DNA of 64,000 nucleotides from Pararhizobium qamdonense (GTDB lineage: Bacteria; Pseudomonadota; Alphaproteobacteria; Rhizobiales; Rhizobiaceae): contig NZ_CP119566.1 in the NCBI RefSeq assembly GCF_029277445.1, positions 2,234,001 through 2,298,000 on the forward strand, written 5' to 3'. The notes beneath the pieces were generated by a model. It did no database searches and was not told the origin of the DNA. It saw only the letters and a program-made list of their open reading frames with translations. The translations under genes were made by a program, and so were the position numbers. Below are positions 493 through 58,340 of the stretch, in pieces (the first letter of the stretch is position 1; each line of letters starts with the position of its first letter).

Positions 493-2295
493 TTACTCGT
501 TGTCCTCAGGAGCTTTGCTCCAACCCCAATAGGTTTGGTATCGTGGCCCATGAGATTGCGGTTGCTGCCCCTTCTCTGGGCGGTCGATAAGAATGGGCAA
601 GGGGGCGGGCAGCTCTGGACCGACAATAATTGCTTCCCCTTGACCAAGCGATGGGATGAAGGCCGCAGCGTCACGGTCGAGATCGCCGCAAGCGCGCTCG
701 ATTGTTTCGCGGTCCCGCTCATTTGTGAGGCGATGAACGAACAGCGTACCCAACTGGCTCAACACGTCGGTTGGTACGTCCCGAGGGCGTTGGGTCGCAA
801 TTCCCGTTGTCAATCCGTACTTGCGCCCTTCCTTGGCAATCAGGCCAAATGCGTCCAGGGTGACGTGATTGGTTTCGTCGCCGATTGAGCGGCCGATGAA
901 TTGATGAGCTTCATCAAGGAAGCAAACCAACGGCACTTGTTGAAATACGTTTTTTCGAGCAAGGCCGAGTAGATGACGGCCCAACGTATTCAGAAGCAAC
1001 TCTCTGGTGTGGTATTTGAAACTCACGTGCTCGAATGAGAGCACCAGAGCGTTCTGGCTTGGGTCGTTGATGAAATCCTGGATTTCCTTGCAAATATCGA
1101 CGCCTTCGTGGGAGAACAAGCAACGCATTTCTGACGAAGACAGATAGGTTTCAACGCGGACGATCAAAGAGTTACAGGCGCTGAGGGCAAAGTCATCCCA
1201 ATCGCCAAATTGGCCAAGGTTGTTCTTCGTATACTGTTTTACGCACTCTTCCTTGATCTGATCTGGAAGTAGACTGATGTCGAAGTCGCAAACGTGCGAT
1301 TCGAGCTGAGATGCCAAGTCGATGAGAGCAAGTGCATGGGCGGTACGGCTGTTTTCACGCTTCCTAACTGTGCCACGTTTACTCACCTCAATGAAACCTT
1401 TTCGATTTCCGAGCGTGTAAATCTCGGTTTCGCCTTCTTCGACAGCGCGATGGAAAGCGTGCTCGTTCCCTCGCAACGCTCCTGCGAGGCGAAGACTTTT
1501 AATCGCATTTCGCAGATTCGGTCCCTGCATCTGCGCAGACGGCGTAAGTAACGCATAAAGATCGATTTCAGACATTTCGCCGTATGGAAACCGGGCTAGG
1601 GGCTGTTGCTCAGTGCCTTTCGAAAAGGAAAACTCCTTCGCCCCGGCGATTTTTCCGGCAAACTCTCCAGTGGGATCGAACAGGATACACTTTCCACCAA
1701 GGCGAACGATCTCGTTGAGCAGCTTAGAAAGGGTCCAGCTCTTACCGCCGCCGGTCGCACCGAAAATCCCGCAGTGTCGCCCAAAGAGCTTCTCTGGCGG
1801 CATGGCGATGTCCGCACCAGCAATTCCAGATAATCGACCAAGGTTCACAAGTAGTCGCTCGTCTTTTCCCTCTCCAACTTCGCCTTGGAGCGCCTCGCGA
1901 ATGGCAGATGCTAGAGCGTTACCATCCGCCAGGTAAATTCCATCGCCAACACGCGGTTTGACGTTGATGCCGCGTGTTACCTTGTGAGTTGCCTTACTGA
2001 TTGTCGCAAGCAGTTGGGCGCGGCCTTGTGGTTCGGCTGAAGCGTCGGCCTCCATTTGCCTCTCAAGGCCCGAGCGTTGCCGCTCTGGCACCGCTACGTC
2101 GGTTATCCGGCCCAGAATGCACTCTTGATCGCAGTCGACGAAAATAAAATCACCCGTTGTTCCCCTGGCCAAACCCCGTTGGCCGCTGGCCGCCAGTGCT
2201 TTGGGGATGGTAAGTTCGATGTAGGAGGCACCGACCCGCGTGACGGTTCCCACCCGTTTATCTGAATCGACGAGGGCGGATGAGGGTTGGTTCAT
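493..2295 (-). CDS. herA: HerA-like ATPase of a SIR2-HerA defence system
   Basis: The 600-residue protein has an N-terminal HAS-barrel-like region, a Walker A motif GATGGGKS at residues 179-186, a Walker B motif FLDEAH at 459-464 and a motif IATQRPRD near 499-506, the arrangement of HerA/FtsK-type hexameric ATPases. HerA proteins form rings; in SIR2-HerA anti-phage systems the ring assembles with a SIR2 complex and infection triggers NAD+ depletion and DNA cleavage (family knowledge). Its ATG overlaps the stop of the SIR2 gene by 4 nt, indicating translational coupling. The length and full motif set suggest an intact enzyme. Housekeeping HerA-NurA is an archaeal pair, so here the partner argues for defence. 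Confidence 0.9.
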   Translation of the reverse strand: MNQPSSALVDSDKRVGTVTRVGASYIELTIPKALAASGQRGLARGTTGDFIFVDCDQECILGRITDVAVPERQRSGLERQMEADASAEPQGRAQLLATISKATHKVTRGINVKPRVGDGIYLADGNALASAIREALQGEVGEGKDERLLVNLGRLSGIAGADIAMPPEKLFGRHCGIFGATGGGKSWTLSKLLNEIVRLGGKCILFDPTGEFAGKIAGAKEFSFSKGTEQQPLARFPYGEMSEIDLYALLTPSAQMQGPNLRNAIKSLRLAGALRGNEHAFHRAVEEGETEIYTLGNRKGFIEVSKRGTVRKRENSRTAHALALIDLASQLESHVCDFDISLLPDQIKEECVKQYTKNNLGQFGDWDDFALSACNSLIVRVETYLSSSEMRCLFSHEGVDICKEIQDFINDPSQNALVLSFEHVSFKYHTRELLLNTLGRHLLGLARKNVFQQVPLVCFLDEAHQFIGRSIGDETNHVTLDAFGLIAKEGRKYGLTTGIATQRPRDVPTDVLSQLGTLFVHRLTNERDRETIERACGDLDRDAAAFIPSLGQGEAIIVGPELPAPLPILIDRPEKGQQPQSHGPRYQTYWGWSKAPEDNE

Positions 2296-3644
2296 TGGGG
2301 GAAATCCCTGATCTGATCGAGCCGCATTTGCAAACGCTGCCGGTCTGTTTCGCCAGCGATTGCAGGGATGGCATCGACCAAATCCTCAAACCTACCGTTT
2401 AACACGGTGATCCGAGGATCACCCTCCTGGACGAGACGCATTATCTTCTTCTGGAATTTTTTCTGCTTATCAATCTCCAGATCAAGCAGGTGATCCGGCT
2501 GATATCCGTCGAGCTTTATCGGGTTTATGAAAGAGGGATCAACGAGCACCAGCCGGAGTGAGAGGTTCGACTCCAATGCTGACCAGATTGGTGCGCTGAT
2601 ATGGTCATCTGCGAAACCAAAACCCGCGACGAAAAGCGCAGTATCAGGCTCCCGGAGCGCTGCTTGAAATGCCGCGAACGCATCCAAGTAGGGAACCTCG
2701 AACGCCTGCTGGTACTTGGTCGAGCGCGGATAGATTAGAACCGGCTCATGGCCCGGCTGGTTGACCGCCATCGATCTGACGACCACGCCGTCAGATTTTC
2801 TCCGCCAGTCGACCGATCCATGCAGTTTGTACAGGTGGAAAACGGCTTCGATGTAGTCAGCCTTGGTGCCCGACGTTTGCCGCCGCACGATATCGTGCTG
2901 GAAATAATCGCGATTGAACCGCTGCTCTGCGCTGTGAGAGAAGCCATCGACAAGGACGACACCTAATCGTGAGGCCGATTCCTCAATGCAAAGGTCGTAA
3001 TTTGTCGTGAATACCTTCACCCGTGGCTTGTCGACGGTACGCTTCGCGAGCTTTTGCACGAAGGCTTTATGTGCAGGCAAATCAGTGTCCTGGTCGACGA
3101 AGTTTACCTTGGTGAGAATAGCACTCTCAGCCGCAGCGATGAAAGTTCGCAGTCTTTGAACTTCGCCCTTTGGGTCAATCTTTTCGGCTGTCGTCGCACG
3201 GATTTCGGTCAGTTCCAGTTTCATTTTGCAAAGGCTGAGTAGGGTCTCGATGTCCCCAGCCCTGGGCTTTCCCTTGTCGTCTAGGGGGATGGCACCGACT
3301 AATTCGATGACCATATTATCGAACGTTTCGTAGTCGAGGTCGAGTTCGCTGACCTTTGCCCGAGCGGCATGCCAAAGATCGCTCATGCCAGGCGCTTGGC
3401 CTTTGGCTTCGTCTGGGTTGTTTGCGCAGAACGATGCTCCCGACCCAAGGAGAGACAGCACATTCGTAGAGTGGAGCGATTGGAGAAGCGCCTCCTCAAC
3501 CCGCGCCTTGGCCCCTGCGATCCTCCTACTGCCTGGGTCTTCAGGATTAGCTTCCTGATCATGCCAGGCCAGCCATTGTCCCTCCCGTGTAAGAAGGCGC
3601 AGATTTTCTGCCGCACCTTGCCTTTTATCCCAGTAACCGCCCAC
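2292..3644 (-). CDS. SIR2-family NADase effector of a SIR2-HerA defence system
   Basis: The 450-residue protein carries a SIR2-like Rossmann nucleotide site GSGAS at residues 67-71, the motif FTTNYD at 212-217 and LHGS at 274-277, whose His matches the usual catalytic histidine. These are hallmarks of bacterial defence SIR2 domains, which cleave NAD+. The C-terminal part (FVAGFGFADDHI) is typical of SIR2_2-type proteins. The start is GTG at 3644 with GGGGG about 8 nt upstream; no better ATG was seen. It is the first gene of an operon with herA. A LexA box lies about 134 bp upstream, so SOS control is possible but inferred. The predicted location is cytoplasmic. Confidence 0.9.
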   Translation of the reverse strand: MGGYWDKRQGAAENLRLLTREGQWLAWHDQEANPEDPGSRRIAGAKARVEEALLQSLHSTNVLSLLGSGASFCANNPDEAKGQAPGMSDLWHAARAKVSELDLDYETFDNMVIELVGAIPLDDKGKPRAGDIETLLSLCKMKLELTEIRATTAEKIDPKGEVQRLRTFIAAAESAILTKVNFVDQDTDLPAHKAFVQKLAKRTVDKPRVKVFTTNYDLCIEESASRLGVVLVDGFSHSAEQRFNRDYFQHDIVRRQTSGTKADYIEAVFHLYKLHGSVDWRRKSDGVVVRSMAVNQPGHEPVLIYPRSTKYQQAFEVPYLDAFAAFQAALREPDTALFVAGFGFADDHISAPIWSALESNLSLRLVLVDPSFINPIKLDGYQPDHLLDLEIDKQKKFQKKIMRLVQEGDPRITVLNGRFEDLVDAIPAIAGETDRQRLQMRLDQIRDFPQ

Positions 3645-8696: not shown

Positions 8697-10772
8697 TTAA
8701 GAAGCAAATTTCGAGATATCGGCAGCGTCGTCATGACTAGGTTGAGCACCGTCTTCCTCTGTCCCTGAAATCGGCAGGGAAAACGCGAAGATTGTTCCTT
8801 GCGGTGAATTTTTTGTGTGCCATAGATCGCCATTGTGCGCTTCTACGATGGACCGGCATATTACTAAGCCCATCCCCATTCCATCGTCTTTTGTCGTGAA
8901 AAACGCTTGCCCGATACCTGCCTCTGTCGGCAAGCCGACGCCATCATCGATGACCTCTACGATGACGTGCGTCTCGTCGTAACGACTTCGCACGATGATG
9001 GGTGAAACAGTTCCTTCGCTTCCATCTAACGCCTCTAGTCCGTTGCGAATTAGGTTCACGAGGATTTGTTGGATTTGTACGCGATCCATCATGACGGTAG
9101 GGATATTTGAAGCGAGTTCGGTGCGTATTCCAACTTTCACACCGATATCGCTGACGCCAATAATCCGCGTGACCTCTTGGATGACTGTGTTGACGTTTTC
9201 AATGACCCGGGCCCGAGAGCTTCGGCGAAAGAGCGAGCGAATACTGCTGACAATCTCCGCCGCGTCTGTGGCATTGTTTATCATGGCTTCCGCAGACGCA
9301 ATCGCGCGATCCACGTTGGGTGAGGCGAGGGTGAGCCATCGGTGGCACGCTTCTGCGTTCGAGATAATCGCCGTTAATGGCTGGTTGACTTCGTGCGCGA
9401 TTGAGGCGGCCAGTTCTGCCAGGCTGGCAGCCCTTGCAGCATCCCCTAGTTTCTCCTGCATGCTTCGCAGTGCGGCCTGCGACTGAACCTCTTCTTCGAC
9501 GTCGATTAGGAAGCCGTATTGCCGCAGTTTGCCCGAAGAGGCGTCTCTGAGGCCTGCATATCGTCCTTCCACCCAACGATATACCCCGTCGGCCCGACGC
9601 AAACGGTAACGCATCGTGACGACAGCGTTGTCTCCAGGATTGCTATTGTAAAGTGTGACTAGTGCTGGCAGATCATCAGGGTGGACCAGTTCTGCCATCG
9701 CACGACCTGCATCGAGGCCGTCTGTCCCCGTATCGTCTTCAGGTGTAATCCCTGTGAAAGTAAGCAGGGGCTTGTTAAAATACGTGTTACCTCGTTCGTC
9801 ACCGACAGTCCAAATCATCATCGGGATGACATCGATAAGTTGTCGAAGCTCCTGTTCGCGGTAGCGGAGTGCATCTTCTTCTCGCTTCAGTGCGTCAATA
9901 TCGATTGCGACCCCGTACCATTGCAGGGGTTTCCCATCAGCGTCCCGCAACAATTCACCTCGCTGTTCGGTCCAACGATAAATCCCATCGGCCCGCCTCA
10001 TCCGGTAACGAGCCGATAAAGGCTCTCCCGTTTCCAGGCTGTGTTTTAGCAAGTCTTCTGCGAGGCCTGCATCGTCAGGATGAATCAGGCCAGGGTTTGA
10101 GCGGCTCACCCGTCGTTGGCTATGCGGGATATCATCAAGTTCACAGCCGAAAAACGTCTGCAAACGCTTGCTAAAATGCGTAACGTAGCCATCGAGGTCG
10201 CAGCACCATATACTTACAGGCAAAGCGTCTATCAGCCTCTGCAGTTCCTGTTCTCTCTTTCGCAAGGCAAGCTCGGCAACCTTTTCGACTTCGATGTCGA
10301 TTTGGGTGCCATACCATGCGGTTATTGATCCCGCGTCATCACGGGCAGGGTGCACCGCCAGCCGGTGCCAGAGGTAAACACCATCCCAGCGTCGCAACCT
10401 GTATTCATAGGTTGCAGGTTCCCCTGATTTCAAGGTCTTTGCCCAATGGTCCAACGTCCCCTGCAGGTCCTCCGGGTGAATAATTTGGGCCAGCATATTT
10501 GCGTAAGCTTCATGGAATTGTCCGCGCTTAAACCCGTTCATCTTGATAAAACTGTCATCCAAGCCGTAATATCTAAGCGCAGGGGGGCTTACATAAGTGA
10601 ACCGGCCATCAGGGTCGTTGGACCACCCGTGGCCTGGCATGCCTTCAACTATCGCGCGAGCATACTTGTCTACGAGGCGCTCATGGCGGGTAGACCAAAC
10701 CCGCCAGACATACCCAGATGCGAATCCGACAATAACGGCGCAAATTACGGTCAGTAGAATATGTGTCGGCAT
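8697..10772 (-). CDS. Membrane-anchored PAS sensor histidine kinase (FixL-like)
   Basis: The 691-residue protein has one N-terminal membrane helix (residues 5-25) and then three PAS_3 domains with PAC tails at about 45-160, 175-295 and 305-425. The dimerisation domain has phospho-acceptor His460 in ASIAHEVNQPL, followed by a complete ATPase domain: N box NLIRNGLEAL, G1 DDGVGLP and G2 GMGMGL. The lack of a periplasmic domain suggests a cytoplasmic signal sensed by PAS. The adjacent receiver at 8265 is the likely partner. Two further kinases of the same architecture lie at 11699 and 36231, suggesting paralogous expansion. Confidence 0.9.
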   Translation of the reverse strand: MPTHILLTVICAVIVGFASGYVWRVWSTRHERLVDKYARAIVEGMPGHGWSNDPDGRFTYVSPPALRYYGLDDSFIKMNGFKRGQFHEAYANMLAQIIHPEDLQGTLDHWAKTLKSGEPATYEYRLRRWDGVYLWHRLAVHPARDDAGSITAWYGTQIDIEVEKVAELALRKREQELQRLIDALPVSIWCCDLDGYVTHFSKRLQTFFGCELDDIPHSQRRVSRSNPGLIHPDDAGLAEDLLKHSLETGEPLSARYRMRRADGIYRWTEQRGELLRDADGKPLQWYGVAIDIDALKREEDALRYREQELRQLIDVIPMMIWTVGDERGNTYFNKPLLTFTGITPEDDTGTDGLDAGRAMAELVHPDDLPALVTLYNSNPGDNAVVTMRYRLRRADGVYRWVEGRYAGLRDASSGKLRQYGFLIDVEEEVQSQAALRSMQEKLGDAARAASLAELAASIAHEVNQPLTAIISNAEACHRWLTLASPNVDRAIASAEAMINNATDAAEIVSSIRSLFRRSSRARVIENVNTVIQEVTRIIGVSDIGVKVGIRTELASNIPTVMMDRVQIQQILVNLIRNGLEALDGSEGTVSPIIVRSRYDETHVIVEVIDDGVGLPTEAGIGQAFFTTKDDGMGMGLVICRSIVEAHNGDLWHTKNSPQGTIFAFSLPISGTEEDGAQPSHDDAADISKFAS

Positions 10773-11698: not shown

Positions 11699-13270
11699 AT
11701 GCTTCGGCTGGTGAATACGTTGGCGCTGAGTGACAAGAACTTTCTAATTTATCTTGCCGACCAGGTAGAATTGGTCCCAGGCAATGGGTGGGCGTGTCTG
11801 GTCGATGGCAGCCAAATTGTGCTCAGCCAATCTATGGCGGCCCAACTGGGGTTGCCGCATCACCAACTGATGATACCTTCTTCCATCCTAAGACATTTGG
11901 ACCCCGACAATGTCGCTGTCTTCGCCCGTAAATGGTTGACGTCCATTAAGAGTGGGGAGCAATTCGACGCGATCCACCGGACGAGGTTCGCCAGCATTAG
12001 CTTCCGGTTTAGCGGCAAGCTTTTGTCGCGCACCGATTTGCCCGCCTCGTTCTGGATTGGCACTGCCTTGGAAATTGACAGCGCTCTTAAGGCGGAGCAG
12101 GTGGGGGGCTATAGCAGCTATGCGAAAGGCATTGATGAAACTGCCGCCTCTCAAAAGGCCCTAAAAGACCGGGAGGAACAGCTTCGTCTCGTCGTTGGCA
12201 CGATTCCCGCCGTAGTCTGGGAGACCGAGCCTAACGGTAAAACAACTTTCTTCAACCGTCGACCAGGTGACTTTCCGGACATTGTGTTACCGGCGACAGG
12301 CGATCCGAAAGAAGCGCTTTTTACCGCAATGAGGTCTGTGATCCACCCTGATGATCAAGCGCAACTGCAAGAGGCGATGGAGAGGAGTTATCAGACTGGA
12401 GACGGGTGGCAGGCGAGATACCGCCGACGGTCAGACAGCGGATACCGCTGGCTTGAAGGTCGCACGACACCGTTGTTAGACGACAAAGGCAATCTAGTTC
12501 GTTGGTATGGCATTGGAATCGACGTTGAGGACGAAGTGCGAGCTAGAGAGCAATATCGACTTGCGCAAGAAGACCTTGAGAGGGTGACCCAGATAGCAAG
12601 CTTGGCCGAATTGTCTGCTTCGATTGCTCATGAAATAAGCCAGCCCCTAGCTTCCGCAGCGGTTGGCGCGGATGCCTGTGTCAGGTGGCTGTCTGCTGAA
12701 CCTCCAAATATTCAAAAAGCAAGACTGAGCGCAGCGGGTGTCCATCGTGATACCGAGTTGGCGGCTGAGATTGTAAGCCGAGTCCGGGCTATGTTTCAGC
12801 TGGGCGAGGGGCACAAGCAAACATGCTCAATAAACACGATTGTCAGTGATGTTTGCTCTATTTTTTCGCACGGGGAAGGAGCCCGAGGCGTTGTGGTTTC
12901 GAAACGTCTAGATGCCGAAGAGCCGCTTGTCGTGGTCGATCCCTTGCAAATCCGACAGGTTTTGATGAACCTGCTGAGGAACGCATCAGAGGCAACGGCG
13001 CTCAACGACGACAGAGCACGTTCGATAGATGTCCAGACCTCCACAAGAGGGCAGCAAGTATTGGTTTCCGTTGAAGACCGGGGAACTGGCATCTCTGAAC
13101 TTACAAAGATTTTCGAGCCCTTCTACACCACAAAAGACAGCGGAATGGGCGTCGGTCTCGCTATCAGCAGATCAATGATTAGTTTACACGGCGGAACGAT
13201 CTGGGCTGAGAACACTGGCGAAGGAGCCCGTGTAGCATTCTCTCTTCAGCGTATGAATACTAATTCTTGA
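11699..13270 (+). CDS. Cytoplasmic PAS sensor histidine kinase
   Basis: The 523-residue protein lacks membrane helices. An N-terminal PAS-like region (about 20-130) is followed by a PAS_3/PAC domain at about 160-285 (AVVWETEPNGKTTFFNRRPG, RWLEGRTTPLLDDKGNLVRW). The HisKA domain carries His311 in ASIAHEISQPL. The ATPase domain has the N box NLLRNASEA, G1 DRGTGI and G2 GMGVGLAI. It is catalytically complete. No response regulator lies next to it; candidates within the window are the receiver at 8265 and the FixJ-type genes at 38634 and 41006. The start has GGTG upstream and is the only good ATG. Confidence 0.88.
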   Translation: MLRLVNTLALSDKNFLIYLADQVELVPGNGWACLVDGSQIVLSQSMAAQLGLPHHQLMIPSSILRHLDPDNVAVFARKWLTSIKSGEQFDAIHRTRFASISFRFSGKLLSRTDLPASFWIGTALEIDSALKAEQVGGYSSYAKGIDETAASQKALKDREEQLRLVVGTIPAVVWETEPNGKTTFFNRRPGDFPDIVLPATGDPKEALFTAMRSVIHPDDQAQLQEAMERSYQTGDGWQARYRRRSDSGYRWLEGRTTPLLDDKGNLVRWYGIGIDVEDEVRAREQYRLAQEDLERVTQIASLAELSASIAHEISQPLASAAVGADACVRWLSAEPPNIQKARLSAAGVHRDTELAAEIVSRVRAMFQLGEGHKQTCSINTIVSDVCSIFSHGEGARGVVVSKRLDAEEPLVVVDPLQIRQVLMNLLRNASEATALNDDRARSIDVQTSTRGQQVLVSVEDRGTGISELTKIFEPFYTTKDSGMGVGLAISRSMISLHGGTIWAENTGEGARVAFSLQRMNTNS

Positions 13271-35773: not shown

Positions 35774-36301
35774 ATGGGGTGCAGCTTTCAAACACCGCGT
35801 AGCGGGTTGAACCAGTTAACGCTCGGTAAGACAGACGGACAGGTATTGCAGCCATTGCCGCCGACCGAAGACAGGGCGATGAGATCGGGTTTGTGCGAAT
35901 GGCAGCTGGAGCGGGTCGCCGCTCTGGTAAACAACAATTTGCATGGGCCAATACGTGTTGCTGATATGGCAACCAGTGTGAGGCTTAGCCCTAGGCATTT
36001 CACGCGTGCTTTCTCCATTAGAACTGGTATGTCGCCGCACGCATTCGTGATGCAGCAGCGAGTAGAGCGTGCGCGCGAACTATTGCTCACGCTGGATATG
36101 GAGATAGTTGAGGTCGCTCTAGCTTGTGGCCTATCGGATCACGCTCACCTGAGCCGTCTTTTCAAGAGGTTCAGCGGGACGACACCAAGCCAATGGCGTG
36201 AGTCATCGTTAGAATCGAACTTAAGTCTAGTCAGGCCGATGCAGCGACCCGTTCGGGCCAAGGGTCCGGATTGCCGGAATCGTTTGCCTCAATCGGCCTG
36301 A
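35774..36301 (+). CDS. AraC-family transcriptional regulator (DNA-binding domain only)
   Basis: The 175-residue protein is mostly an AraC/XylS double helix-turn-helix: VADMATSVRLSPRHFTRAFS and GMSPHAFVMQQRVERARELL, then VALACGLSDHAHLSRLFKRF and GTTPSQWRE. There is no ligand-binding domain, only a 50-residue N-terminal arm, so it may respond to cell level or modification rather than a ligand. AAGG precedes the ATG. Its last 71 bp overlap the 3' end of the minus-strand histidine kinase gene (convergent), so transcription may interfere. Its target could be the importer just upstream. Confidence 0.88.
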   Translation: MGCSFQTPRSGLNQLTLGKTDGQVLQPLPPTEDRAMRSGLCEWQLERVAALVNNNLHGPIRVADMATSVRLSPRHFTRAFSIRTGMSPHAFVMQQRVERARELLLTLDMEIVEVALACGLSDHAHLSRLFKRFSGTTPSQWRESSLESNLSLVRPMQRPVRAKGPDCRNRLPQSA

Positions 36302-38522
36302 TCGGCAGGCTGAAGGTCACCGCTGCGCCGCCACCGGGAAGCGTTTCTGCTCGCAGTTGTCCTTGATGAGCCTCAATAATCGAATGGCAAATAGCTAGAC
36401 CCATTCCCATCCCATCTTGCTTCGTAGTGAAGAACGGTTCGAAGATTTTGTCTGGGTCGATGATACCCGTGCCACGATCACGAACTTCAATCTCAATCAT
36501 TTCGCCTCTTACACGGGAGGAGATCGTGACCAGTTGTCTCTCAATTGTTTTTTCCTGCATGGCTTCAGATGCGTTCCTGATAAGGTTGAGCAAAACCTGT
36601 TCAAGCTGGACGCGATCCGCGCTTGTGGCTGGTACGTGCGGGTCCAAGTCGATTTCAATCTTCACGGCTTGAGCAATAAGTCTGTCAGTAATTAAATCTC
36701 TCAAGTCGGTGATCAGTGCGTTTACGTCTACTTTGTGCTTGGGGAACACGGCCTTTCCAAAGAGGGCTCTTATACGGCTGACGACTTGCGCAGCTGCATC
36801 GGCATCTCGAACGATCCATTCAGCGGTCCTGTTCGCTCTGTCGAGATTGGGTGGAACAGCGTCGAGCCAACGTTTAAAGGCATGAGAGTTCGCGACTAAT
36901 GCTTGCAGCGGTTGATTTAGTTCATGCGCAATTGAGACCGATAGTTCCGAAAGGCTCGCCGCTCTGAGGGCGCGTGCCAAACGTTCATCGGACCGTCGGA
37001 GTGCTTCCTGGGCACGGACCTCGTCGTCAATGTCCAGGTTCACTCCGTACCATCTTATTATTTCGCCATCTTCGTTGAGGAGTGGTTCTATTCGGGACTG
37101 CATCCACCTGTATTGGCCGTCTTTCCGGCGCAGTCGTCCCTTGTGACTAAAGGGTTTTCCCGCAGCAATCGTCTGCTTGATCGCACTATCGACTGCAACT
37201 CGATCTTCGGGATGTATAAATTCGACCATTTTCAGCTTATCGCCGTCCAGAAGAGCGGAGGCGACCGACAGCCCTGACCAATCCACAAACCGCTTGTTGA
37301 AGTAGTACGGCATTCCCTCGGGCGTCATAAGCCAGATTAACGAGGGAACGGTGTCAATTAGCAACCGAAGCTCGTTTTCGCTCTTGCGAACGGCTTCCGT
37401 TGCTTCGACTTGATCATTTATATCGAGGCAGACACCATACCACTGGATGATGCTACCATCGTGACCACGGAGAGCCTCCGCCTTCCCATCGATCCAGCGG
37501 TAAACACCATCATGGCGACGTTGACGGTATCGAAGAGCGAACGCTTGCCCACTATTCAGCGCCTGCTCAAGGGATTGCTTCCAGATGGCGCGATCCTCAG
37601 GATGTATCGTTGCCATTATTGCCTTAGCAAACTGGGCCGAGTCGCCTGGTTTCGTCGACTCTAGTGGAATACCAGTCCAGATTCTGAGGGGAGTGTTTAT
37701 ATAGGAAGGTTGCCCTTCTGCAGTTGCGCACCAAATCAACGCTGGAACCGTGTCGATCATCTGTTGAAGCTGAGTTTGGCTGTCCAGCAACGCCGCTTCA
37801 GCTTTGCGTTGATCATCGATATCAACCGTTGTTCCGAACCAAGCCACAATGTGCCCATTTTCATCGCGAGATGCTATCGCGGCGTCTCGCATCCAGCGGT
37901 AAGTGCCGTCATGTCGTCTGACGCGCTGTTCCTCGAAGATTGGTTCGCCAGTGCGTAGGCTGTGATCCCAGCGGTCTATGCAACCGTCGCGATCCTCGGG
38001 ATGCACAAATTTGCTCCACCAAGAGTGATTGTCTATCTTGGATATCGCACTCATTTCGGCGGCGGTGACGCCGACATAGTTTAGAGCCTTTGGATTTAGA
38101 AACCTAAGGCGACCGTCAGCGTAGGCCGACCATCCAAAGCCAGGTATGTCCTCGATATTCGGCTGAACCGTTTCATAGACCCGGTCGAACAGAGTCTTCG
38201 CGTTCGCAAGCTTCATTAGCATTGCCAGGCAAATGGCGCTGGCACCAAACCCAAAAAGGCGCTCGGTCGGCTCCACGCCGTCATAAAACGGAGAATTTAA
38301 AAAGCACGCCGTCGCAAAGAAAATTGCCAAGAGGGTAGGGATCGCGTGGCGACATTTCGCTAGCAAGCACGTCGCAGCGACCGTGACCAACATTGCAGTC
38401 GGATCAGACAGCACGAATGTCAAAACGGTTCCTGAGAACCCGATAACGTATACTAAACAGCGCCGACCTTTCGACGTTGCGATGTGGTTGAAAGCCCAGG
38501 AAACGGCCACGGTAGTCCCCAC
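36231..38522 (-). CDS. Membrane PAS sensor histidine kinase with three PAS_3 domains
   Basis: The 763-residue protein has an N-terminal membrane region of about four helices (residues 3-105), then three PAS_3/PAC units at about 125-240, 250-370 and 380-500, each ending in a WFGTTVDIDD or WYGVxxDI motif. The HisKA domain has His533 in VSIAHELNQPL, and the ATPase domain has N box NLIRNASEA, G1 RDRGTGI and G2 GMGMGLAI. It is the largest of three related kinases in the window. A FixJ-type regulator gene lies upstream on the same strand 112 bp away (38634-39281) and is its likely partner. Confidence 0.9.
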   Translation of the reverse strand: MGTTVAVSWAFNHIATSKGRRCLVYVIGFSGTVLTFVLSDPTAMLVTVAATCLLAKCRHAIPTLLAIFFATACFLNSPFYDGVEPTERLFGFGASAICLAMLMKLANAKTLFDRVYETVQPNIEDIPGFGWSAYADGRLRFLNPKALNYVGVTAAEMSAISKIDNHSWWSKFVHPEDRDGCIDRWDHSLRTGEPIFEEQRVRRHDGTYRWMRDAAIASRDENGHIVAWFGTTVDIDDQRKAEAALLDSQTQLQQMIDTVPALIWCATAEGQPSYINTPLRIWTGIPLESTKPGDSAQFAKAIMATIHPEDRAIWKQSLEQALNSGQAFALRYRQRRHDGVYRWIDGKAEALRGHDGSIIQWYGVCLDINDQVEATEAVRKSENELRLLIDTVPSLIWLMTPEGMPYYFNKRFVDWSGLSVASALLDGDKLKMVEFIHPEDRVAVDSAIKQTIAAGKPFSHKGRLRRKDGQYRWMQSRIEPLLNEDGEIIRWYGVNLDIDDEVRAQEALRRSDERLARALRAASLSELSVSIAHELNQPLQALVANSHAFKRWLDAVPPNLDRANRTAEWIVRDADAAAQVVSRIRALFGKAVFPKHKVDVNALITDLRDLITDRLIAQAVKIEIDLDPHVPATSADRVQLEQVLLNLIRNASEAMQEKTIERQLVTISSRVRGEMIEIEVRDRGTGIIDPDKIFEPFFTTKQDGMGMGLAICHSIIEAHQGQLRAETLPGGGAAVTFSLPIRPIEANDSGNPDPWPERVAASA

Positions 38523-38633: not shown

Positions 38634-39281
38634 CTACAACTGACCGCGAAGTTCTGACGGCAGCGACTGCCAGGCACTAAAGAGCTGAGCAAACGAGGTA
38701 ACTTGCATTTTTTTCATGCCATTACTTCTATGAAGCTTGACCGTGACTTCTTGTATCTTCAGAGCGTGAGAAATCTGCTTATTCAATTCCCCTGCTACCA
38801 CCATTCGGAGGACTTCCCGCTCTCGGGACGACAGGGTTTCAAACAACGCAACATACTTGTTGAATGTGTTGGCCAGCTCGCGCTGACTAATGTCGATGGC
38901 GATTGCCTTCGATACAGCGTCCAGAAAAGTTTGTTCTCGAACTGGTTTAGTCAAAAAATCTTGCGCGCCAGCTTTCATCGCTTGAACGCTCATTGCGATG
39001 TCGCCATGGGCAGTCAAAAACACGATAGGGGTGGAGACACCATTTCGCGCTAAATGGGTCTGCAAATCGAGGCCGCTAAGCCCTGGCATCCTCACGTCAA
39101 GAATGAGGCATGCTGGCCGATCCGGAAGTGGTTCGCTGAGAAATGCGTGCCCCGAAGAATACGTAACGGCATCGATGCCGACAGAATTCAAAAGGTTTCC
39201 AAGTGACTCGCATACAGCAACGTCATCATCGACCAATATCGCAATTGGATTTTTGACCTTCATCTCTCCCATGAGAGTCAT
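38634..39281 (-). CDS. FixJ-type response regulator
   Basis: The 215-residue protein has a receiver domain with acidic pocket ILVDDD, phospho-acceptor Asp62 in LDVRMPGLSG, Thr in FLTAHGD and Lys in TKPV. A LuxR-type helix-turn-helix follows (LSSREREVLRMVVAGELNKQ; EVTVKLHRSNGMKKM). Recognition residues are typical of FixJ. The start at 39281 follows GGGGGG; several in-frame ATGs compete, so the N-terminus may be 3-7 residues off or extended. It precedes the kinase gene in transcription order and likely forms its cognate pair. Confidence 0.92.
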   Translation of the reverse strand: MTLMGEMKVKNPIAILVDDDVAVCESLGNLLNSVGIDAVTYSSGHAFLSEPLPDRPACLILDVRMPGLSGLDLQTHLARNGVSTPIVFLTAHGDIAMSVQAMKAGAQDFLTKPVREQTFLDAVSKAIAIDISQRELANTFNKYVALFETLSSREREVLRMVVAGELNKQISHALKIQEVTVKLHRSNGMKKMQVTSFAQLFSAWQSLPSELRGQL

Positions 39282-39563
39282 GTGTCCCCCCATTGATCCG
39301 ACGACTGCCTTTCCTTGAGAACCCGTAATCGAAAAATAGTACAATAAATCCTCTCCGGTTTGAAGACTATGCCACGGGAATTTGGCTCCATTCGTGGGTT
39401 TTTACCGTATTCTTGCGGGTCAGGTGTTTCACTGGGTGACAGACCCAACGGGTAAATGGTCCGGGCGAATAGGTTCCAATCATCCAGATTCTAGGACAGC
39501 TTGACGCAAGCCTAAGGATGCATTCGTGGGTTGCAATTATTTCCGTTAACATTGGAGTGTTCC

Positions 39564-39974
39564 ATGAGGATCGGGTCTGGCTCTGACTCAGTATATCAAC
39601 TCTTTCTGCCACGAACGAAGAACGACAACCTACCTGATGGGGGTGGGCAGCGGCCATCTGGGCCTTCTATCCGAGGCATCGGTGGCAGCGCTTCCGATAA
39701 TTCAATCGCAGCCGCGTTACAGGCTAAGTTGGCGCAAAGTGCCTTCGACCGTAATGATTCTAATGGTGATGGCTTTGTTGATAAGCAGGAGTACATCGAC
39801 AACAGTTTGAAGCCGCGCTCAGACGGTTACGTGCCGGACCAGGCGGACGTGGAGCGGAGATGGAGCGAATTTGACAAGGAGGGAAAAGGCCGTCTCTCCA
39901 AGGAGGAATTTAAAGAAGGGTTCTCCTCTGTTGTGAGCGTATCTGTGGGTCACTTCAGCAAGCCTATACGGTAA
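39564..39974 (+). CDS. EF-hand domain protein
   Basis: The 136-residue protein contains one clear EF-hand loop DRNDSNGDGFVDKQEY, with the acidic ligands at positions 1, 3, 5 and 12, and a second degenerate loop near DKEGKGRLSKEEF. The N-terminal 50 residues are Gly/Ser-rich and lack a signal peptide. Calcium binding is predicted for at least one site. The ATG at 39564 follows TTGGAG; an earlier frame start at 39531 lacks a ribosome site. EF-hand proteins of this size are common in rhizobia and may be secreted by a non-classical route; that is inference. Confidence 0.85.
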   Translation: MRIGSGSDSVYQLFLPRTKNDNLPDGGGQRPSGPSIRGIGGSASDNSIAAALQAKLAQSAFDRNDSNGDGFVDKQEYIDNSLKPRSDGYVPDQADVERRWSEFDKEGKGRLSKEEFKEGFSSVVSVSVGHFSKPIR

Positions 39975-39981
39975 AACTCTG

Positions 39982-40015
39982 GGCCTTCGACCGGTTTCGG
40001 TTGGAGGCCTTCGTC
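39982..40015 (+). terminator. Possible hairpin after the EF-hand gene
   Basis: GGCCTTCGACC and GGTTGGAGGCC form an 11-bp stem with two wobble pairs, followed by TTCGTCT. The U-run is weak. Confidence 0.4.
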
Positions 40016-40163
40016 TCTACACAGAAGCAAACGACTAGACCAAAGCACAGGTAGACTGTTCTCCGAGCCAGCTAGACGCTCCGAGTGAAGGCTGTAATCT
40101 CTTTACGAAAAATCGAAGTTCGACCGTTCTTAAGTCGGCTTAGTGGTTATCATGGAGAGGGTG

Positions 40164-40943
40164 ATGGACGCGACAGGCTATGTTAAGCGGCAAAAAACCA
40201 ATATAATCTCTGCGTTGGCGACGCTTAAAAGAGAGACAACGCGGACGGCGAGCCTCGTAACGCTGAGCCAGATAGCCTCATCCATTACCCTTGATCTTCG
40301 TCAACCGCTTGCAGTTATCGCGACAGACTGTGCAACTGGCCGTCATCTGCTCGCTCAGCCTCATGCAGACGCACCGAAGATTCGGCTTCTGCTCGACCGA
40401 ATATTAGAATGCGTCCACTGGGCAAACGAGGTGGTCTCCAAGATCGACCAATCTGATCCCCAAAGGACACCTTTTCCGGCTGATCAAGATATCAACGAAG
40501 TTATAGCAACCTCCATTCAAGTTGTGGGCTGCGAAAGCATTTCCAACGGAGTGAAGGTCTCGTTCTCGTCTAGCGAGCCTGGATTGCTGGTATTTGGGGA
40601 CAGGGCGTTGCTCCAACAGCTTTTGGTGACGCTGTTAGTTGTTGTCATAAGAAAACTAAACACGTCCACACTGCACCCGTGTGAACTTAGAATCGAAACT
40701 TGCCGCAGGGACGGCCATGTCTTTATCACCGTCGCAGCGAGAAATCCGCGTAGGCAGTCAATCTACGGAACGGGAGACCCAAAGGTAGAACTGTTCGGCA
40801 CTGGACAGCAGCTCGAAGAGAAAGCCTGTCTTCAGTCCTGTGATGCCATCGTCGCCGCACATGGTGGCATCTTGAACCGAATTCAAACTGAACCCATCAC
40901 CTGGTACTCAATAGTTCTGCCGTTATCTTGCCGTGCCGCCTGA
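40164..40943 (+). CDS. Degenerate (pseudo-) histidine kinase
   Basis: The 259-residue protein aligns end to end with the kinase core of the neighbours but without PAS domains. The phospho-acceptor His is replaced: SSITLDLRQPL (residues 39-49) stands where the kinases have ASIAHEVNQPL, with Leu43 for His. The N box reads LLVTLLVVVIRKL in place of NLIRN, the G1 DxGxG is absent and the G2 GMGMGL is replaced by QQLEEKACL. The fold pattern, the IVAAHGG helix and the terminal WYSIVLPL strand are kept. The reading frame is intact and the start has GGAG, so selection for a non-catalytic role is likely. It lies 62 bp before a FixJ-type gene. Confidence 0.8.
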   Translation: MDATGYVKRQKTNIISALATLKRETTRTASLVTLSQIASSITLDLRQPLAVIATDCATGRHLLAQPHADAPKIRLLLDRILECVHWANEVVSKIDQSDPQRTPFPADQDINEVIATSIQVVGCESISNGVKVSFSSSEPGLLVFGDRALLQQLLVTLLVVVIRKLNTSTLHPCELRIETCRRDGHVFITVAARNPRRQSIYGTGDPKVELFGTGQQLEEKACLQSCDAIVAAHGGILNRIQTEPITWYSIVLPLSCRAA

Positions 40944-41005
40944 TCCTGAGCCCTTGGGGCCAATACGCGGGCGAGCTTTGCCAGCAGACAATCTTGGAGG
41001 TTATC

Positions 41006-41656
41006 ATGCCAAATTCCAGCCAATCTTTGGAGCGAGCGCCCACAATCTATATTGTTGATGATGAGGAGCATTTAGGCTCATCTCTGGTCAATTTGTTTGA
41101 ATCGATGCAGCGTAAAGCAGTGACCTTTAAAAGCGCAGCAGACTTTTTAGCAAACGTTGATGCTCGTGATCGAGGCTGTATCCTACTTGATGTCCAGATG
41201 CCCGGCATGACAGGGTTAGAAATGCAGGAGAGGCTTGCCGAAATTGGTAGCCAGCTCCCTATTATCTTCATGACAGGAAACGGCAATGTTTCAGTTAGCG
41301 TGACAGCGATGAAGGCTGGCGCATTTGATTTCCTTCTCAAGCCCTTCAGCAGCAACGCGGTAATTCAGGCTACAGACAAGGCCATTGAGTATGACGAAAA
41401 AAATCGAGTTAAAGGTGCTTTTCGTCAGAAGATTCAAGATTGCAGCGATAAACTCACTCCCCGGGAGACCGAGGTGCTCAAGTACGTTAGCCAGGGTCTC
41501 ATGAACAAGCAGATCGCACATGAGATGAGTATTAGCGAGATCATGGTGAAGCTTCACCGAGGCCGAATGATGCGAAAAATGCAGGCTACATCGATTGTTG
41601 ATATTGTCCGTAAATATGATTTTTTGAGCGCGTCGGGGGTTGGAGTCACCACCTAG
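41006..41656 (+). CDS. FixJ-type response regulator
   Basis: The 216-residue protein has a receiver with acidic pocket IVDDEE, phospho-acceptor Asp62 in LDVQMPGMTG, Thr in FMTGNG and Lys in LKPF. The LuxR-type output domain has LTPRETEVLKYVSQGLMNKQ and SEIMVKLHRGRMMRKMQ. GGAGG precedes the ATG. It follows the pseudo-kinase gene by 62 bp and is probably cotranscribed, so the pseudo-kinase may bind and modulate it while another kinase phosphorylates it. It shares its C-terminal recognition region with the product of 38634. Confidence 0.92.
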   Translation: MPNSSQSLERAPTIYIVDDEEHLGSSLVNLFESMQRKAVTFKSAADFLANVDARDRGCILLDVQMPGMTGLEMQERLAEIGSQLPIIFMTGNGNVSVSVTAMKAGAFDFLLKPFSSNAVIQATDKAIEYDEKNRVKGAFRQKIQDCSDKLTPRETEVLKYVSQGLMNKQIAHEMSISEIMVKLHRGRMMRKMQATSIVDIVRKYDFLSASGVGVTT

Positions 41657-41809
41657 CCCGCAACCTCGGTGGTGTCTGAGACAATTTTGACTGATTTTTG
41701 GTCGGCGCAGATGAACCGTCGCCGACCGCCGTTGAAGCCAAAGAGAGACCGCCAACTTTGAGGCTCAGGCCTAAATATCAGCTTAAGCGCCGTTTGAGAG
41801 CATGTCGGT

Positions 41810-42082
41810 TTACGCGTGACGGAATGGAATCACGTTGTTGCCCCGCATAAATGCAAGGGCACCCTCTGCCTCAATGGCTTTCACCGCTACGTCCCGCGCC
41901 TCTGCGTCGGATTGGAATTGCTCATCCCAGACGTGACTTGTGTTGTTGTGGTCGACCACCTCAAGCGTCCATGTCGTATCGGTTTCCAGTCGGAAGATGT
42001 CGATGGAGAAGGGAAAGCCATCAACGACGATCCTCTTACTTTTGCCAGAGGTCACCAGATTGGGTTCGTCGTCTTCGATCAT
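41810..42082 (-). CDS. Small conserved rhizobial hypothetical protein
   Basis: The 90-residue protein starts MIEDDEPNLVTSGKSKRIVV and has the pattern WTLEVVDHNNTSHVWDEQFQ, then SDAEARDVAVKAIEAEGALA. It is soluble and has no signal peptide. I recognise this style of small protein in Rhizobium genomes, where it is annotated as hypothetical. The ribosome site is weak. It is convergent with the FixJ gene. Confidence 0.65.
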   Translation of the reverse strand: MIEDDEPNLVTSGKSKRIVVDGFPFSIDIFRLETDTTWTLEVVDHNNTSHVWDEQFQSDAEARDVAVKAIEAEGALAFMRGNNVIPFRHA

Positions 42083-42144
42083 TTAGCACGTCCAGCTTCT
42101 GTATCACGACGACGAATATGCCAATGGAGCTGAACCCGTCAAGC

Positions 42145-42300
42145 GGCTTGCTTGACGGTCCTTTTTAGATGCCCACGGCAGCAACTCGTTGATCCGTATC
42201 GGCCTGTGGCCATTTACGATAGGGGCGAGCGGCTCCGTATCAGGGACGAATTTTTCCAAACTGGCGGCTAGCTTAGGTCGATTGCATCTTGGCGGACTTT
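42145..42300 (-). pseudogene. Remnant of an IS66-type transposase C-terminus
   Basis: One minus-strand frame reads LEKFVPDTEPLAPIVNGHRP and then IRINELLPWASKKDRQ. The run IVNGH...RINELLPWA matches the C-terminal signature of IS66 TnpC transposases. Upstream the frame degrades and no catalytic DDE region, start or inverted repeats could be found, so only a scar of an insertion element remains. Confidence 0.5.
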
Positions 42301-42522: not shown

Positions 42523-43260
42523 TCAACGTGTCAGGGCTCGCAGCGAGTTTGATTCCCTTTGGATTTTCACTTGTCGCAGAAGACGGGCGATAACCGAACA
42601 CAGTGGGCGCGACAACAGGGATGTATCCTCGAAAAGCTCTTCGTAATGATATGAGGCACTCTGCTCTGACTCGATGTCGAGCAGCCGGTGGAACGCGACA
42701 TGAGACAATCTCCAGCCATCGGATGTGACGGGTAGCGCGATTGCTTGGCTCGGCGAGCTGAACATCGCAACGGAAGGGGTGTCACACATGCATACCACCA
42801 GCTCATAACCACTGAGGCTTGTCGTGGCGGGAACCGGTAAGCTGACACCGATAACTATTGATACTCTTCGTGCCCTGGTCTCCGTGACCAGGGGATCGGC
42901 GATTGGTGTGGGTGTATGAAGCTTTACAGAGGCTCTTATACAGTTCGACAGGATGATCTGTAACGAGTCTAGCTCCTCGGCGAATTCGTGATTGCCGGTA
43001 ATCACGACTTCATCCGCCTCTAAAAGGGCGTGCGCCACTTCCGCTAGGACTGCACTCCACCCTGAAACGGTATAGCGGTCGGTTGTTTGGTCATACTGCA
43101 TTGGAAATGGTAAAACCCCAAGCTCTGAGAGAGAGGTCTGGGGCCAAGCATTCAATTGAGACACCGAATTGGTGGCGAAAAACTCGGGTCCGGCTTTTGG
43201 CATCCGGGGGAGCGTAATTTCCATTCCGGTGCATTTTGCATTCGATAATGACGATGTCAT
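42523..43260 (-). CDS. Hypothetical protein
   Basis: The 245-residue product begins MTSSLSNAKCTGMEITLPRM; the ATG at 43260 follows GGGGGG. The middle has LAEVAHALLEADEVVITGNH and HEFAEELDSLQIILSNCIRA, both helical. Then come SIVIGVSLPVPATTSLSGYE and VVCMCDTPSVAMFSSPSQAI. The C-terminus is basic (RQVKIQRESNSLRALTR). There is no signal peptide or membrane segment. I do not recognise a family. It is divergent from or independent of its neighbours: an IS66 scar on one side, an SDR gene on the other. Confidence 0.55.
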   Translation of the reverse strand: MTSSLSNAKCTGMEITLPRMPKAGPEFFATNSVSQLNAWPQTSLSELGVLPFPMQYDQTTDRYTVSGWSAVLAEVAHALLEADEVVITGNHEFAEELDSLQIILSNCIRASVKLHTPTPIADPLVTETRARRVSIVIGVSLPVPATTSLSGYELVVCMCDTPSVAMFSSPSQAIALPVTSDGWRLSHVAFHRLLDIESEQSASYHYEELFEDTSLLSRPLCSVIARLLRQVKIQRESNSLRALTR

Positions 43261-43428
43261 AATACCCCCCACAAAGTCGTGCCGTACCTATTCAAATGTT
43301 GAACGTGCGGCAAGATTGGTCAGCAGCTTCTTGCGCAGCGAAGAAAGCCTAACCTTTTGTGACTGGTACATAAACTATACAAAGGTGTGCTGCGATCCTG
43401 TCTCGTGAACTGAACCGCAGCGCTGTAA

Positions 43429-57124: not shown

Positions 57125-58183
57125 TTATCGTTTGAGCTGTGAAGGCAGATCAGCACCAGTCCGCAGCCGATAATCAGACAAGGTCACGACCTTCTTGCCT
57201 TCATCTTTATCGGCCTGCGCCTGCCTGAAGGCCTTTTTGACCTCATCAATCGTGGGGTTCTTGCCTTCGAGCTTGCGGATACGGGCGGCACCGATGATGT
57301 AACGGATTTTCTGATAGAAGTCCCGAACGTCGATGAACACCTGCATTGCGTCGAGTTTGTCGGAGGTTGGGCCGTACTTTGACAGAACTTTTTCCAGGCT
57401 ACCAGCTTTGTCCATCGTGAAATCATAGCTGAGAGTCTCAGGCTGTTCGATCAAGAAGGCCATGATGTCGTCGTAGCTGTGGCCTGCCGCCAGAAACTTG
57501 GCCAGCAGTTCGGCTGCAACGATGTTGTGGTCTAAGGACATGCCTGCCAGCAGTGACAGGTCGGAGTAATCCTTCCAGCGACCGATTGTCGGGGTCAGAG
57601 CAGACAGAAGCTTGTCAGCAGCCTGGGACTCGAACGACTGGTAGTGTGCGAATGTCGGCTCTTGCTTCGCGTAGAAGGTTGAGCCGTGACGCTTGGTCTG
57701 CTTGTGCCTAGGAAACTTCTTAGGGCCGCCCCATGTCACATCGACATGGTTTTTGACCGTGCTCGGACCAACCTGCACCGAGAAATTGTAGCGATGGACG
57801 AGCTGACCATTCGTGTTGATCACCTGGGCCTTCCGGTCAAAGCCGGTCAGGGCAATTCCCTTTTCGGCAAGGCGTGGTGCCATGACGGTGAAGGCTCTCT
57901 CGAACTCCCAGTCCTCAATGGCACGCATATATAGGAGATCGATATCGGCGGTCTCCCTGATGCCTTGGTGGTACGCGTAGCCCCCTTTAACGAGCGGCTC
58001 GGATTTGATTTCCGCAAGGATGTGGCGAAGGACCTCTTCGCCGGTGGCGCGGTCGAGGGCTCGGCCTGCGTCCATTGTCCGGACACGTGCATTCGTCTCC
58101 GAATTGAACGCACAGCAGGCGGCTTCGATACGCTGTTTGAATTTCTTTCCTTCTTCGAGGATGCGGGTATCGATGTTCGACAT
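57125..58183 (-). CDS. AbiEii/AbiGii-type nucleotidyltransferase
   Basis: The 352-residue protein has the nucleotidyltransferase core KGGYAYHQGIRETADIDLLY: a GG motif at residues 67-68 and the metal-binding Asp pair at 80-82 (DxD). QAADKLLSALTPTIGRWKDY followed by SDLSLL matches the later conserved part of AbiEii toxins. In AbiE systems AbiEii transfers nucleotides to a target and AbiEi is the antitoxin. No AbiEi gene is adjacent, so this may be an orphan or have another partner. GGGAGAA precedes the ATG. Abortive-infection function is inferred from family only. Confidence 0.8.
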   Translation of the reverse strand: MSNIDTRILEEGKKFKQRIEAACCAFNSETNARVRTMDAGRALDRATGEEVLRHILAEIKSEPLVKGGYAYHQGIRETADIDLLYMRAIEDWEFERAFTVMAPRLAEKGIALTGFDRKAQVINTNGQLVHRYNFSVQVGPSTVKNHVDVTWGGPKKFPRHKQTKRHGSTFYAKQEPTFAHYQSFESQAADKLLSALTPTIGRWKDYSDLSLLAGMSLDHNIVAAELLAKFLAAGHSYDDIMAFLIEQPETLSYDFTMDKAGSLEKVLSKYGPTSDKLDAMQVFIDVRDFYQKIRYIIGAARIRKLEGKNPTIDEVKKAFRQAQADKDEGKKVVTLSDYRLRTGADLPSQLKR

Positions 58184-58340
58184 TGTTTTTCTCCCAAATT
58201 GCATCTGGGAGGAGGTTTGTTTTCGGCCTTGCAAGATACGAATTCGGCCGATCAGGTGTCGTCTCGGGTCGAGGTTTCCATTTCAGCAGTCCGAATATCA
58301 ATAGGACAAGACTCCTATGGTCGGCGGAAATGTCCAAGAC

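Follow-up and report, generated by a model that had tools for sequence, protein, structure and literature searches.

A pseudo-histidine kinase gene directly upstream of a FixJ-type regulator in Pararhizobium qamdonense, with kept receiver-docking residues and a patchy distribution among relatives

The locus lies in a stretch of 64,000 nucleotides of Pararhizobium qamdonense DNA (the window), which is probably chromosomal because kinase matches on its contig reach past 4.25 Mb. The frame of interest (40164-40943, plus strand) is open and encodes a 259-aa histidine-kinase homologue with DHp and CA parts, and it stands in a block of regulatory genes with the following features.

36231..38522, minus strand: three-PAS histidine kinase, motifs intact, a candidate phosphate source in the same block
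38634..39281, minus strand: FixJ1, a second FixJ-type regulator, divergent from the pseudokinase
39564..39974, plus strand: EF-hand protein gene between FixJ1 and the pseudokinase, syntenic in Pararhizobium arenae, a putative member of the system only
40164..40943, plus strand: pseudo-histidine kinase, 259 aa, stop included, with alternative in-frame starts at 40152 and 40143
40245..40457, plus strand: DHp region, residues 28-98, constrained (pN/pS 0.43-0.57)
40290..40292, plus strand: Leu43 codon (CTT) at the phospho-His position
40293..40337, plus strand: receiver-docking stretch of DHp helix 1, residues 44-58, with V51, T54, D55 and T58
40488..40928, plus strand: CA region (residues 109-255), degenerate and missing the key N, G1 and G2 residues, its last part near neutral
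41006..41656, plus strand: FixJ2, a FixJ-type response regulator, 62 bp 3' of the pseudokinase, with a receiver (41045-41371) and a GerE/LuxR HTH (41450-41611)

Alignment with intact kinases showed that the phospho-acceptor His is replaced by Leu43 and that the N-box Asn, the G1 Asp and the G2 glycines are all replaced in the window protein, which confirmed the original prediction of an open frame with Leu for the phospho-acceptor His and without the N, G1 and G2 boxes. Profile searches of the 259-aa protein gave no HATPase match, and no PAS domain was matched anywhere along it. The loss of ATP-binding motifs is common among pseudo-histidine kinases, and it is not required of the kind. A sequencing or frame artefact was ruled out, because independent orthologues carry the identical Leu. 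Judged by its sequence, the gene is thus a pseudo-histidine kinase, and its product would be without catalytic activity and should not autophosphorylate. The kinase fold is predicted to be kept, based on a structure model and a profile match, and the model includes the DHp hairpin of two helices, in agreement with the fold that had been proposed. All three open pseudokinases compared here have Cys56 and Cys83, which fall on different helices of the predicted DHp hairpin, while Cys was found at position 56 in none of the 22 intact kinase rows and at position 83 in two of them; as a guess, the pair could have a redox role and could make the grip on a receiver redox-sensitive. A 259-aa protein on a 2893-base contig (P0001) differs from the window pseudokinase at 2 residues (a 99% copy) and possibly represents a second strain with an open frame.

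FixJ2 has the receiver, the LuxR HTH and the intact phospho-Asp site of a FixJ-type response regulator, and its best NCBIfam match is FixJ (E=3.7e-50); it was not assigned as FixJ itself, the score being 170.3 bits against the 255-bit equivalog cut-off of NF006900. The PAS kinase of the window, though intact, fell just under the Pfam HisKA cut-off (25.7 vs 26.9 bits), so a low HisKA score alone is uninformative. Scans of 39300-42300 returned 4 promoter-like sites (2.5 expected) and 2 terminator-like sites (3.0 expected), both at about chance. The pseudokinase and FixJ2 are presumably co-transcribed. Just after FixJ2, the segment 41781-42220 matches plasmids of Agrobacterium rubi and A. vaccinii at 93% identity, where it lies under an IS66 transposase or a hypothetical gene, and is read as an insertion-element remnant; in its place P. 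arenae carries a stand-alone receiver gene of 168 aa (L028:8547-9053). Elsewhere, the window is rich in PAS histidine kinases, with two further genes that have the His (8697-10772, minus strand, and 11699-13270, plus strand), and it contains an AbiEii-like nucleotidyltransferase of a type IV toxin-antitoxin family (57128-58234, minus strand) and adjacent SIR2-like and HerA-like genes (493-3644, minus strand; best PADLOC matches SIR2, E=6.8e-86, and HerA, E=6.4e-139) which look like a SIR2-HerA anti-phage pair.

With the proposed search for syntenic homologues, five orthologous loci are known, that of the window included. In all five, Leu occupies the phospho-His site and a FixJ2 orthologue follows directly; none has His, the restored catalytic residue that had been named as evidence against a pseudokinase. 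At the level of gene order, the pairing with a FixJ-type regulator was likewise borne out, by synteny in three genera. The frame is open in the window, in P. arenae and in Agrobacterium sp. 33MFTa1.1, and broken on two Rhizobium plasmids. The P. arenae protein is 35% identical to the window protein, its frame overlaps that of FixJ2 by 4 nt, and the block shared with the window comprises the transporter, AraC, PAS kinase, FixJ1, EF-hand, pseudokinase, FixJ2, SDR and AraC genes. The Agrobacterium copy is annotated as a hypothetical protein and lies 50 bp upstream of a FixJ2 which is 63% identical to that of the window. The broken copies, with in-frame stops and a frame change in Rhizobium sp. 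Y9 and ended after the first 58 residues in CC-CFT758, have Leu at the same site and are followed by an open FixJ2. The PAS kinase beside FixJ1 in Rhizobium sp. Y9 (L091:13989-15802) is also split into several frames, so that both block kinases are lost there with FixJ1 and FixJ2 open. No pseudokinase was found beside the FixJ2 relatives of Sinorhizobium sp. B11 (60%) and Rhizobium sp. CCGE532 (57%), and a genome of the same species (G009) has neither the pseudokinase nor a close FixJ2 (best 48% identity). In the same block of Sinorhizobium terangae (L029:6598-7548) and S. mexicanum (L109:8767-9816), short histidine kinases with intact motifs directly follow the PAS kinase and FixJ1, and were regarded as another accessory kinase.

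Of the 26 genomes searched within the genus, 14 had a match at E<=1e-10; the Leu protein was confined to the window genome and the presumed P. arenae genome, and the other matches were kinases with His. The family-level search matched 6 of 394 genomes (E<=1e-18) and the order-level search 72 of 397 (E<=1e-15), the window's own genome included in both. Among 68 aligned rows from fetched loci, which cover a minority of the order-level matches and include several rows that duplicate one locus, 62 have His, 5 have Leu and 1 has a gap, and the 5 Leu rows are copies of the two Pararhizobium loci. Protein searches gave 11 different proteins, 9 with His and 2 with Leu, the latter being the 99% copy of the window protein and the P. 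arenae protein, and the search of genome contigs gave two distant matches.

In kinase trees, from which the two broken copies were left out, the three open pseudokinases form one clade on the whole domain (support 98/97) and also on the DHp without the His column (96/93), although all three sit on long branches, which are prone to attraction. In the regulator tree the five pseudo-linked FixJ2 proteins were not grouped, and the Agrobacterium FixJ2 fell closer to regulators whose kinases are intact (93/85, not starred); a constraint grouping all five was not rejected (p-AU 0.146). A single ancestral loss of His would be the simplest reading of these trees, with parallel losses of His to Leu as an admissible alternative.

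Between the window and P. arenae, dN was compared across the block, apart from the transporter's binding protein, which had no match since the P. arenae stretch (L028) stops short of it. The pseudokinase reached a dN of 0.71, whereas FixJ1, the PAS kinase and FixJ2 stood at 0.15, 0.19 and 0.20, respectively. Fast divergence alone does not amount to decay, because the unnamed block gene at 42523-43272 is fast as well (dN 0.58); the small AraC gene reached 0.50. The whole-ORF pN/pS was 0.71, 0.75 and 0.67 in the three pairs of open copies (the two broken ones again left out), with all bootstrap intervals below 1, where the original prediction had taken a dN/dS near 1 as the mark of pseudogene decay; these ratios are upper estimates, because synonymous sites are near saturation. 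In a simple neutral simulation with 2000 runs per level of divergence, the open frame survived 7 times at 0.3 substitutions per site and never at 0.7.

The constraint is regional, with the DHp better conserved and the last part of the CA near neutral. The DHp pN/pS was 0.43, 0.49 and 0.57 for the three pairs, and that of CA residues 109-165 was 0.64, 0.65 and 0.65, with bootstrap intervals below 1 in both; for the whole CA it was 0.79, 0.88 and 0.73, the middle interval including 1, and for residues 166-255, the ATP-lid half, 0.90, 1.08 and 0.80, with all intervals including 1, as was also the case for the first 27 residues (0.91, 0.98 and 0.70). Positions invariant among the three open pseudokinases numbered 27 of 71 in the DHp vs 18 of 147 in the CA (p=2.6e-5). 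When residues conserved in six sister kinases were counted, the DHp and the CA did not differ (16 of 53 kept vs 14 of 72, p=0.20). Residues 44-58 kept 8 of 15 such residues vs 8 of 37 outside this stretch in the DHp (p=0.044) and 22 of 109 elsewhere in the DHp and CA (p=0.009), in retention tests which are small and partly post hoc.

These results bear on slow decay, in which FixJ2 would have come under another kinase while its former kinase, inactivated once in an ancestor, has been eroding, the open frames being survivors without a role. It is the main rival, because two of the five copies are broken beside an intact FixJ2 and other FixJ2 loci are without the gene, and the near-neutral C-terminal CA, the high dN relative to FixJ1, FixJ2 and the PAS kinase, and the absence of the gene from the same-species genome also agree with it. 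Nevertheless, three frames have stayed open despite near-saturated synonymous divergence, the whole-ORF and DHp intervals lie below 1, a block gene is similarly fast, and the docking residues described below are kept, and slow decay is thus considered possible but rather doubtful. The suggestion that the gene has been retained consequently held in part: the long divergence with an open frame and the better conserved DHp speak for it, and the near-neutral C-terminal CA, the two broken copies and the two FixJ2 loci without the gene speak against it. Because of these broken copies and of the B11 and CCGE532 loci, the role of the pseudokinase appears dispensable in some lineages, and overall the gene is conserved but patchy and tied to FixJ2.

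The stretch which is best kept falls on the receiver-docking helix, where V51, T54, D55 and T58 are present in all three open pseudokinases. The structure model aligns residue 45 with residue 262 of HK853, and residues 51, 54 and 58 thereby correspond to HK853 A268, A271 and T275, helix-1 sites which are changed in the rewired-interface entries 4jas and 4jau. The motif H-V-T-D-T was found in all five kinases located within the 12-13 kb stretches around sister FixJ2 genes; two of these stretches (L142 and L145) yielded no kinase. Outside the PAS-kinase block, 5 of 13 intact rows have exactly V-T-D-T, further rows linked to FixJ2-like genes have V-A-D-T or V-N-D-T, and the nine PAS-block kinase rows have mostly A, A, N and A at the four positions. 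A kinase search of the window genome and P. arenae gave 85 matches; in the 30 of these loci that were read, V-T-D-T occurs in only the two pseudokinases, and the other 28 have the His without V-T-D-T, so that in these 30 loci the ancestral FixJ2-type docking face survives only on a dead kinase.

Two further accounts were weighed. The pseudokinase may tune a working kinase, perhaps the neighbouring PAS kinase, by pairing DHp to DHp and altering that kinase's activity; a DHp hairpin is predicted, the PAS kinase is encoded in the same block, and precedents are reported for RocA on CovS (PMC7028121) and for a ChrS pseudokinase on HrrS (PMC9491836). Since the kept stretch is the receiver-docking one, its class differs from that of the PAS kinase, and DHp identity to the PAS kinase is low (24% over the whole domain in the alignment), we regard such tuning as unlikely. 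The pseudokinase may instead be a residual phosphatase or a phospho-sink for phosphorylated FixJ2, for which no phospho-His is needed, and in all three pseudokinases the His site is followed by Asp or Glu (+1) and by Gln (+4). Residues at these positions serve phosphatase activity in related kinases. Their retention says little about phosphatase activity, because the same +1 and +4 residues also occur in 22 of 22 intact rows, and with the nucleotide-binding motifs lost this account seems highly improbable.

The best reading, to which we give about an even chance, is that a sensorless pseudo-histidine kinase docks FixJ2 without phosphorylating it, and that its ancestor was the kinase in a kinase/regulator pair of the FixJ2 class, the even chance applying to both jointly. 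An ancestral kinase would have lost its His, its ATP-binding motifs and any sensor domain, and kept a DHp hairpin with FixJ2-class docking residues, through which the pseudokinase would most likely bind the FixJ2 receiver without phosphotransfer. Such binding would set the amount of free or phosphorylated FixJ2, making the protein an anti-activator, a buffer or a phospho-stabiliser, and any phosphate on FixJ2 would be donated by a different kinase, perhaps the PAS kinase of the block, or by a small phosphodonor. The decoy, scaffold or anti-regulator action first suggested for the protein is a candidate role only, and the original interpretation is supported in part. Limiting, timing and stabilising FixJ2 are alternatives for the direction of the effect that are most likely as a group, and because relatives have the same dead kinase, the pseudokinase now probably holds or times FixJ2 rather than activating it.

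Similar logic has been described for DivL of Caulobacter (structure 4q20), reported to bind phosphorylated DivK and stabilise its phosphorylation (PMC5361649). DivL has Tyr at the His site (PMC5361649), PAS sensor domains and the kinase CckA as its target, whereas the window protein has Leu, carries no sensor domain and is encoded directly upstream of a FixJ-type transcription factor; with Leu rather than Tyr and no PAS match, it was not placed with DivL. NifL of Azotobacter is reported as a kinase-like protein without phosphotransfer that forms a stoichiometric complex with the activator encoded alongside it (PMC3466315, PMC12998174), and as a partner encoded with its regulator it offers a working model for an anti-activator which the window gene order fits. 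It differs, as described there, in its PAS domains, in an inhibition that depends on nucleotide status and in binding an enhancer-binding protein rather than a receiver, and the window protein, at 21.7 bits on TIGR02938 against a cut-off of 242.45, was not assigned to NifL either. RocA (PMC7028121) and the ChrS pseudokinase (PMC9491836) are likewise kinase homologues reported to act without catalysis of their own, but via pairing with a working kinase; RocA is described with transmembrane segments, and the ChrS case comes from laboratory evolution. FixL chimeras are the nearest solved relatives by sequence; unlike FixL, the window protein has no PAS, no His and no ATP site, and assignment to FixL was rejected (NF041777, 27.7 bits against a cut-off of 850; His and ATP-site residues lost).

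Few bacterial pseudo-histidine kinases have been studied so far, according to PMC5361649, and the titles and abstract openings concerning pseudo-histidine kinases and FixJ or rhizobial pseudokinases held no description of this gene, which does not prove its absence from the literature. A more specific form of the docking account, which we advance only tentatively, is that of a dedicated sensorless anti-regulator, a docking-only partner that would occupy the receiver of the downstream transcription factor, with the phosphate coming from a different kinase of the block. If this were true, an ancestral kinase/regulator pair would have become a regulator/anti-regulator pair. Related bacteria of this lineage show the pair with its kinase intact, the dead kinase with its frame still open, the broken gene and loci that lack it, and such a series lets one ask what a kinase remains good for after catalysis and how a regulator survives without it.
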